From contig SKZV01000007.1 of NCBI GenBank assembly GCA_007127165.1, positions 1 to 43,807 of the forward strand: 43,807 nucleotides of DNA, read 5' to 3'. The position numbers and the translations under genes were made by a program. Every line of letters starts with the position of its first letter. Positions within the stretch are counted from its first letter, which is position 1. Shown here piece by piece: positions 18,092 through 19,611 of this stretch. The notes under the pieces are model-generated. The model was given only the letters and a program-made list of their open reading frames with translations, did no database searches and was not told the DNA's origin. The DNA is from Rhodovibrio sp. GTDB lineage: Bacteria > Pseudomonadota > Alphaproteobacteria > Kiloniellales > Rhodovibrionaceae.

Positions 18092-19390
18092 ATGCTGGAG
18101 CGCTATTTCGAACTCGCCAAGCACGGAACTTCCGTGCGGCAGGAGGTTCTCGCGGGGGCGACGACCTTCCTCACGATGGCCTATATCATTGTGGTCAACC
18201 CGGCGATCCTGTCCGACACCGGGATGGACTTCGGCGCGGTTTTCGTCGCCACATGCCTCGCGGCTGCCTTCGGCACGCTGATCATGGGGATCGGGGCGAA
18301 CTATCCCTTCGCTCTGGCCCCCGGGATGGGCCTCAACGCCTACTTTGCCTACGCCGTGGTCGGCGGGCTCGGCATTTCCTGGCAGGTGGCGCTTGGCGCG
18401 GTTTTCATATCGGGCGTGCTGTTCCTGATTATTTCGGTTCTGCCGCTGCGCGAATGGATCGTCAACGCCATACCCACCAGTCTGAAGCTGGCGATTTCCG
18501 CCGGTATCGGCTTTTTCCTCGCGATCATCGCGCTCCAGAACGCGGGCGTCGTGGTCGCGCATCCGGCGACGATGGTGACGCTGGGGAACCTCACGACTCC
18601 GGATACCGTCCTGGCGGGAGTGGGTTTCGTCCTGATGATCGCGCTGGATTACCGGCGCGTGCCCGGCGCGGTCCTCATCGGCATCCTGAGTATTGCGGTC
18701 GTCGGAATCCTCCTTGGGATTTCGGAATTCCAGGGCGTGGCCTCCATGCCGCCGAGCATGTTGCCGACCTTGCTTCAAATGGATATTGCCGGGGCGCTCC
18801 AGGTCGGCCTGATCACCATCATCTTCGCGTTCCTGTTCGTCGATCTCTTCGATTCCTCCGGCACGCTGGTGGGTCTGGGACACCGCGCCGGATTCCTCGA
18901 CAAGCAGGGCCGCATGCCGCGTCTGAAGAACGCTCTCTTGGCGGACTCCAGTGCAACCGTCGCCGGGTCGATGCTCGGCACCTCCACGACGACGACCTAT
19001 ATCGAAAGCGCGTCCGGCATCAAGGCGGGAGGACGAACCGGGCTGACCGCGGTGACCGTGGCAGGGCTTTTCTTGCTGGCGCTCTTCCTATCGCCGCTCG
19101 CGCAGTCGATCCCGGCCTACGCCACTGCCCCGGCCTTGCTCTTCGTCGCCTGTTTGATGGCGCGCGGTCTGGCAGAGGTCGATTGGGAGGACCCGACGGA
19201 GTATGCGCCCGCCGTGGTCACGGCCATCGGCATGCCGCTGACCTACTCCATCGCCGACGGCATCGGCTTGGGTTTCATCACTTATGCGCTTACGAAGATT
19301 CTCAGCGGCAAGTTGCAGCAGGCGTCGCCCGCAGTCCTATTGATCGCGGCGCTCTTCGTCCTGCGTTTCATTCTGTTGGAGATCGGATGA
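18092..19390 (+). CDS. NCS2-family (AzgA-like) purine permease
   Basis: 432 residues, strongly hydrophobic with about 12-14 helices. The opening FELAKHGTSVRQEVLAGATTFLTMAYIIVVNPAIL and GANYPFALAPGMGLNAYFAY are typical of the AzgA/GhxP/PbuG branch. FLFVDLFDSSGTLVGLGHRAGFLD and GTSTTTTYIESASGIKAGGRTGLTAV hold the conserved substrate and proton region. The likely substrates are hypoxanthine, guanine or adenine, taken up with protons. It is one of very few plus-strand genes and interrupts the DUF1467-proS neighbourhood. No purine riboswitch is visible in the 157-base upstream gap. Confidence 0.9.
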   Translation: MLERYFELAKHGTSVRQEVLAGATTFLTMAYIIVVNPAILSDTGMDFGAVFVATCLAAAFGTLIMGIGANYPFALAPGMGLNAYFAYAVVGGLGISWQVALGAVFISGVLFLIISVLPLREWIVNAIPTSLKLAISAGIGFFLAIIALQNAGVVVAHPATMVTLGNLTTPDTVLAGVGFVLMIALDYRRVPGAVLIGILSIAVVGILLGISEFQGVASMPPSMLPTLLQMDIAGALQVGLITIIFAFLFVDLFDSSGTLVGLGHRAGFLDKQGRMPRLKNALLADSSATVAGSMLGTSTTTTYIESASGIKAGGRTGLTAVTVAGLFLLALFLSPLAQSIPAYATAPALLFVACLMARGLAEVDWEDPTEYAPAVVTAIGMPLTYSIADGIGLGFITYALTKILSGKLQQASPAVLLIAALFVLRFILLEIG

Positions 19391-19421
19391 ACCCAATGAC
19401 CGGAAATGTTGAATATTGACG

Positions 19422-19451
19422 TTGGATAGATCGAATCTTTCCTGCTAGTAT
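19422..19451 (+). promoter_or_regulatory. Promoter-like pair ahead of the putative small RNA
   Basis: TTGGAT (19422-19427) and TAGTAT (19446-19451) are 18 bases apart on the plus strand, 31 bases after the permease stop. A second TTGACG at 19416-19421 overlaps the -35 area. Transcription would start near 19458 and run into the strong terminator that ends at about 19599. Confidence 0.5.
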
Positions 19452-19457
19452 CCGCGC

Positions 19458-19599
19458 CACGCGGCCAACAACGACCAGACACGGCGCAGCCCAAGTCTGG
19501 GGAGGAAACGCCTGAAAAAAATGTTCCCGCAAGGGGACGATAAAAAAAGATAGCCGCGCGACGACGGGCTCCTTCCCTGGAAGGAGCCCGTCGTGTTTT
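19458..19599 (+). ncRNA. Candidate small RNA (about 140 nt, own promoter and terminator)
   Basis: No long gene fits this stretch, yet it has transcript architecture. There is a promoter-like pair upstream. Then comes a perfect 6-bp stem (ccagac 19475-19480 with gtctgg 19495-19500), an unpaired GGAGGAAAC and A-rich linker, and a GNRA-capped hairpin (gttccc-gcaa-ggggac, 19523-19538). A 14-bp terminator stem closes it. The next gene is convergent, so this is not a leader. A 10-codon frame (ATG 19521 to TAG 19553, MFPQGDDKKR) lies inside, with GGAGG 15 bases upstream, so a tiny peptide is an alternative. I could not match it to a named RNA family. Confidence 0.5.
19561..19599 (+). terminator. Strong intrinsic terminator
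   Basis: A perfect 14-bp stem (acgacgggctcctt with aaggagcccgtcgt, 6-base loop) is followed by GTTTTC. It ends the plus-strand transcript of the candidate small RNA and probably read-through from the permease gene. On the other strand T-runs appear about 8 bases beyond the stem, so it may also act weakly on minus-strand transcripts leaving DUF1467. Confidence 0.85.
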
Positions 19600-19611
19600 C
19601 AGGGGAGGCGA

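Follow-up and report, generated by a model that had tools for sequence, protein, structure and literature searches.

The intergenic region between a purine-type permease gene and a DUF1467 gene of a Rhodovibrio genome most probably encodes, on the plus strand, a stand-alone small RNA (sRNA), about 140 nt long, which serves as a decoy, or sponge, for the αR8/MmgR family of Hfq-binding sRNAs. We assign this interpretation a probability of about 0.83, with the expression and the function of the RNA remaining untested. Judging from the sequence, and in the absence of any transcript data, the locus is a genuine small RNA gene. What we observe is the gene itself, its conservation and synteny across related genomes, the compensation of base changes in its stems and a base-by-base covariation between the putative sponge site and αR8. 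The stretch of DNA under study, hereinafter the window, is the 43,807 bp contig C329 of the 3.37 Mb, 353-contig assembly of this genome (G000).

The locus and its genomic neighborhood

The sRNA locus lies in the intergenic region 19391-19611, which is flanked on one side by the permease (Xan_ur_permease, 18092-19390, plus strand) and, on the other side, by the DUF1467 gene (PF07330, 19612-19860, minus strand) followed by the gene for methylmalonyl-CoA epimerase (TIGR03081, 19870-20274, minus strand). The proline--tRNA ligase gene, proS (NF008979, 16006-17382, minus strand), is also a syntenic neighbor, as is the epimerase gene, and the permease is found upstream of the sRNA in many relatives. 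The original prediction, which was made from the sequence alone, posited that the next gene is convergent with the sRNA, and the orientation of DUF1467 bears this out.

A search of the whole window against Rfam at the gathering threshold returned two tRNAs only, leaving the sRNA locus unmatched, and no Rfam family covers its plus strand. In the E-value mode, the same search yielded chance matches along with a single informative one, a weak match to suhB on the minus strand. When the entire intergenic region is compared with relatives at the DNA level, nothing beyond short matches is found, two of them to the antisense strands of αR8 genes. It was the weak minus-strand suhB match (12.2 bits), taken together with these short antisense mmgR matches, that led to the recognition of positions 19489-19511 of the plus strand as the complement of the αR8/MmgR core, a key feature that the original prediction had overlooked.

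Architecture of the predicted sRNA gene

The inferred transcript (19458-19600, plus strand, ~140 nt) would start near position 19458 and end after the terminator. It is preceded by a promoter-like element (19422-19451, plus strand) that consists of a -35 hexamer, TTGGAT (19422-19427), an 18-nt spacer and a -10 hexamer, TAGTAT (19446-19451). This pair, with this very spacing, is the one named in the original prediction, and it is indeed present, though weak by the standard of the E. coli consensus, which it matches in 7 of the 12 positions; a simple promoter scan did not report it. Two structural elements proposed at the same time are likewise recovered, namely, a perfect 6-bp stem and a GNRA-capped hairpin. 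In the minimum-free-energy fold, CCAGAC (19475-19480) pairs with GUCUGG (GTCTGG in the DNA, 19495-19500), forming a hairpin (19475-19500, plus strand) that presents the sponge site, and the second hairpin, GTTCCC-GCAA-GGGGAC (19523-19538, plus strand, with one G-U pair), lies between A-rich linkers. The fold additionally predicts a long-range stem in which 19460-19465 pair with 19553-19558, enclosing the hairpins (19460-19558, plus strand); an apparent corresponding stem of a different sequence is discernible in another genome (G001), by eye, in a comparison with locus L075.

The terminator (19561-19600, plus strand) is perfect and is followed by GTTTTC, as had been claimed, but its stem is 15 bp long (19561-19575 with 19580-19594, loop CCTG), not 14 bp. 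The T tract is short and weak; nevertheless, with the 15-bp stem and GTTTTC in place, the requirement for a Rho-independent terminator in a trans-acting sRNA gene is met. Compared with 200 dinucleotide shuffles, the fold of the window sequence is more stable (z -5.4), largely owing to the terminator, and the stronger evidence against chance is provided by conservation in related genomes rather than by fold stability.

Conservation of the sRNA gene

As determined with a promoter-to-site model (R1) combined with syntenic inspection, the sRNA gene is present in 37 of the 58 genomes of the order, and at least 25 further genomes of the class contain sponge-like loci. In the class-level sample of 385 genomes, partial matches to the model were largely to the antisense strands of αR8 genes, so the count is confined to full-length loci that were inspected. 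All 25 inspected class-level loci have DUF1467, epimerase, proS or permease genes within ~1.5 kb, and in several of these, the order permease, sRNA, DUF1467 is the same as in the window. Relatives carry GGCCCRAGTYTRGGGAGGA beside DUF1467, invariably antiparallel to that gene, with a -35/-10 element upstream and a hairpin and a T run downstream. The family model has a full-length match to the window at 19416-19522 (E 5.9e-9), an E-value to be read with the caveat that the window sequence itself was in the alignment used to build the model.

A promoter-like -35/-10 pair is found upstream in 53 of the 57 loci of the family, with a spacer of 17-18 nt in 49, and the family form of the element is RTGAC, 17 nt, TAnnnT. 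The occurrence of RTGAC instead of TTGAC at -35, together with the nearly fixed 17-nt spacing over the 57 loci, could point to a special class of promoter or to a special regulator. A plus-strand terminator was detected by a script in 44 of the 57 loci; that of the window itself was missed because of its short T tract.

Just upstream of the sponge site, the relatives have a 5' hairpin of a different sequence, and the hairpin 3' of the site recurs in them as well; in both hairpins, the sequence changes and the pairing is kept. Double changes are seen in 7 of the 22 pairs within one genus and in 5 of the 11 pairs across 16 genomes of the class, and in both sets, the stem covariation scores are reached by none of the 500 shuffles and by none of the slid controls. 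When RNAalifold was run on a MAFFT alignment of the whole family, almost no structure was obtained since the lengths differ; lineage-wise alignments worked. Stems that are not conserved or compensated had been named at the outset as a result that would refute the proposal of a trans-acting small RNA gene, and at the level of the family, this test has been run and passed, even if the exact stems of the window differ between lineages. That proposal is well supported by same-locus orthologues in those 37 of 58 genomes and in many more of the class, the promoter-like element, the terminator and the compensated stems.

The fate of the accompanying suggestion of a dual RNA or micropeptide is different. 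The 10-codon frame on which it was based exists, running from ATG at 19521, 15 nt after GGAGG, to TAG at 19551-19553, but the peptide is unsupported and the frame is not conserved. We reject this candidate, given that an ATG or GTG frame of at least 8 codons at the proper spacing after GGAGG was found in 0 of the 57 loci.

Complementarity to αR8 and coevolution of the two RNAs

The putative anti-αR8 site (19489-19511, plus strand) consists of GCCCAAGTCTGGGGAGG (17 bp) and AAACGC (6 bp) and pairs with 5'-GCGUUU(A)CCUCCCCAGACUUGGGC-3' of αR8, giving 17 bp, one bulged A (1 nt) and 6 bp. In a scan of 28-nt stretches of both strands of the window, sampled every 4 bases, against αR8, this site gave the best duplex on either strand, at -47.1 kcal/mol, the next unrelated site reaching -30.8. 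Duplex energies for whole RNAs compared with shuffles were uninformative, long interior loops being allowed, whereas the 28-nt sliding test was clear. Two αR8 genes of the genome are canonical (49.6 and 45.2 bits), a third one is weak (29.5 bits), and both canonical genes carry GCGUUU-A-CCUCCCCAGACUUGGGC. Where the usual αR8 has CCCU, the αR8 of this genome has CCCC, which is matched by GGGG in the sponge. A 20-mer of the site occurs in a single copy in the genome, and allowing up to 3 mismatches adds just one further place, which differs at 3 positions. There are three αR8 matches per genome in this genome (contigs C108, C84 and C90) and in G001 (three loci), both of the family of the window, and in each, two of the three come close to the canonical form and contain an additional A (UUUACCUCCCC or GUUACCUCCCC) that the usual UUUCCUCCCU core lacks.

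The variable positions of the sponge site are the R, Y and R of CCCRAGTYTRGGG. Among the 47 genomes with both RNAs that were included in the count (two, G013 and G025, were left out for unusual or shifted sites), the 18-nt site pairs better with the αR8 of its own genome than expected under permutation (793.5 vs 757.2 ± 3.4; 0 of 20,000 permutations), and with one genome taken per genus, the result is the same (489.0 observed vs 465.1 ± 3.1; again, 0 of 20,000). The permutation leaves kinship in. However, double changes are observed at several sponge/αR8 positions, even inside one genus, where kinship can hardly be invoked: genome G055 has A in αR8 and T in the sponge, in contrast to G and C in the rest of its genus (g22), and the C and G of G372 stand against T and A in G291 and G191. 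By the standard set for sponges, namely, that pairing with the sRNA partner is preserved by coevolution, this site qualifies.

Furthermore, the presence of the gene tracks that of canonical αR8: it is found in 37 of the 40 genomes with a canonical αR8 and in none of the 18 without one (Fisher 3e-12, uncorrected for kinship, with the absences falling in about four clades). In families f2 and f6, genus g6 and genome G002, most genomes have neither a canonical αR8 nor the sponge, which suggests that the two members of the pair were lost together in these lineages. Not every detail fits the sponge interpretation equally well: the promoter-like element and the T tract of the window are weak, the site of the window lies partly inside the 6-bp stem, the site is truncated in genus g12, and genus g22 has one mismatch in the core.

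Alternative interpretations

Could the functional gene reside on the opposite strand, as a divergent αR8 paralogue, with the plus-strand features being secondary? In some distant, class-level loci, the reverse strand does carry an αR8-like core and a terminator with a T run, the minus strand of one such locus (L160) scores exactly at the suhB threshold of 41 bits, and concerted evolution of paralogues would mimic covariation too. Nevertheless, we regard this possibility as unlikely. The minus strand of the window scores only 12.2 bits against that threshold and lacks a T run after the core; the promoter-like element with its fixed spacing is on the plus strand; and the invariant αR8 10-mer, UUUCCUCCCU, is mostly broken on the minus strand. 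In addition, over the first 16 positions, 21 deviations from complementarity retain G-U pairing as opposed to 3 transitions that break the pair (p ~3e-4), although the cut at 16 positions was picked after seeing the data, and with all 18 positions, the counts are 22 and 10 (p 0.05). As a separate observation, the reverse strand of the sponge reaches or nears the Rfam suhB threshold in L160 (1539-1629, minus strand) and other class-level loci, and automated annotation with Rfam may call a sponge locus mmgR, on the wrong strand.

A second scenario, quite improbable in our assessment, retains the action on αR8 but not the independent gene: the RNA would be a processed fragment of the 3'-UTR of the purine permease mRNA. 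The stop codon of the permease (19390) is 31 bases upstream of the -35 element, the search for an intervening terminator came up empty, and the linkage of the permease with the sRNA is recurrent. What this scenario does not account for is the promoter-like element upstream in nearly all loci, including those without a permease detected within ~1.5 kb.

Less probable still are two related options for the RNA, a conventional sRNA directed at mRNAs and a small mRNA that is a target of αR8 instead of its antagonist. A perfect Shine-Dalgarno sequence, GGGGAGG, is part of the site, and in G001, a near-identical site elsewhere in the genome precedes the ATG of a 46-aa frame, but in the sRNA family, neither a start codon nor a reading frame is conserved downstream of the site (0 of 57 loci). 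The G001 sequence merits attention in its own right: in locus L005 (1500-1680; G001:C1:973179 onward), CCCAAGTCTGGGGAGGACACGCC is located directly before the ATG of this frame, which includes a hydrophobic stretch, and the corresponding mRNA is a candidate αR8 target with near-full complementarity. Finally, an ordinary bidirectional terminator with 3'-UTR debris, for which the perfect hairpin between convergent genes and the T-rich stretch also on the left side of the stem could be adduced, can be discounted almost entirely, as it leaves unexplained the 23-bp antisense site, the αR8 covariation, the promoter-like element and the tracking of αR8 presence.

Proposed function and evolution

The sponge interpretation implies the following chain of events. 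The αR8 RNAs repress mRNAs via a single-stranded anti-Shine-Dalgarno core, CCUCCC; the sRNA would display the complement of this core, extended to 23 bp, sequester αR8 and probably trigger its decay; and the targets of αR8 would thereby be freed from repression. Transcription of the sRNA, its binding to Hfq, and the sequestration, decay or lowering of αR8 are all inferred, and so is the physiological signal, for which the state of carbon or nutrient supply is suggested by analogy with CrfA of Caulobacter.

The αR8/MmgR RNAs have been reported from all orders of the class but Rickettsiales (PMC12559287). In the open-licence papers, the only αR8 antagonist that we found described is that of Caulobacter; an earlier description of the present RNA may have been missed. 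The occurrence of a syntenic, coevolving antagonist in many families suggests that sponge-mediated control of αR8 is not peculiar to Caulobacter but belongs to nutrient regulation in general and is of old standing. A more specific evolutionary scenario can be offered only tentatively and is, in our view, somewhat less probable than not: αR8 and this sRNA would be an ancient, coevolving sRNA/anti-sRNA pair in much of Alphaproteobacteria, the sponge having originated by inverted duplication of an αR8 gene into the space between the permease and DUF1467 genes, and in Caulobacter, CrfA would be an independent replacement. The sponge and αR8 represent a ready two-gene system to test.

Comparison with known systems

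The closest functional parallel is CrfA of Caulobacter crescentus (Vogt et al., 2025; PMC12559287), which binds the αR8 10-mer of SisA-D, as demonstrated by RIL-seq, structure probing and compensatory mutants (PMC12559287), and on carbon starvation lowers SisA-D and frees their targets (PMC12559287); Hfq-dependent decay of αR8 and derepression of the targets have been shown (PMC12559287). Shared with the RNA described here are the αR8 target family (SisA-D), the free-standing gene and the G/A-rich GGGGAGGAAACGCC pairing element positioned roughly 40-60 nt from the 5' end. Complementarity to the αR8 10-mer core and flank, one criterion for a CrfA-type RNA, is also in evidence (17 bp, bulge and 6 bp with the αR8 of the same genome), and a CrfA-like mechanism, by analogy, is the most economical one for this sRNA.

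The likely crfA genes differ in several respects. In loci L312 and L303 (a C. vibrioides MAG and C. segnis, respectively), around position 1500 of the minus strand, there is a hairpin, GGCGUUUC-GGGGAG-GAAACGCC, with a terminator, and the agreement of GGGGAGGAAACGCCC with the published numbering of G49-G54 and C63 marks these loci as the likely crfA genes. Here, GGGGAG is the loop of the GGCGUUUC/GAAACGCC hairpin, the CCCAAGTYT extension is missing, and the genes are not beside DUF1467, proS, epimerase or permease. Model R1 had no match in 12 Caulobacteraceae genomes at E 0.1 (an empty answer that alone shows little), and no such sponge site was found within 1.5 kb of DUF1467 in Caulobacteraceae. 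The family model, synteny and architecture all speak against CrfA as an orthologue; the two αR8 sponges may have arisen independently or may descend from one ancestor and have diverged until the relationship became unrecognizable.

With αR8/MmgR itself (Rfam RF00519, suhB), the likeness is that the sponge site is complementary to the conserved core of this RNA, and the difference is in the opposite strand and the opposite role; the window does not qualify for RF00519 membership, its minus strand remaining at 12.2 bits against the threshold of 41. In a broader context, QrrX of Vibrio and the phage-encoded AgvB and AsxR (named in PMC12559287) similarly are free-standing RNAs that sequester a base-pairing sRNA, with different hosts, sequences and targets.
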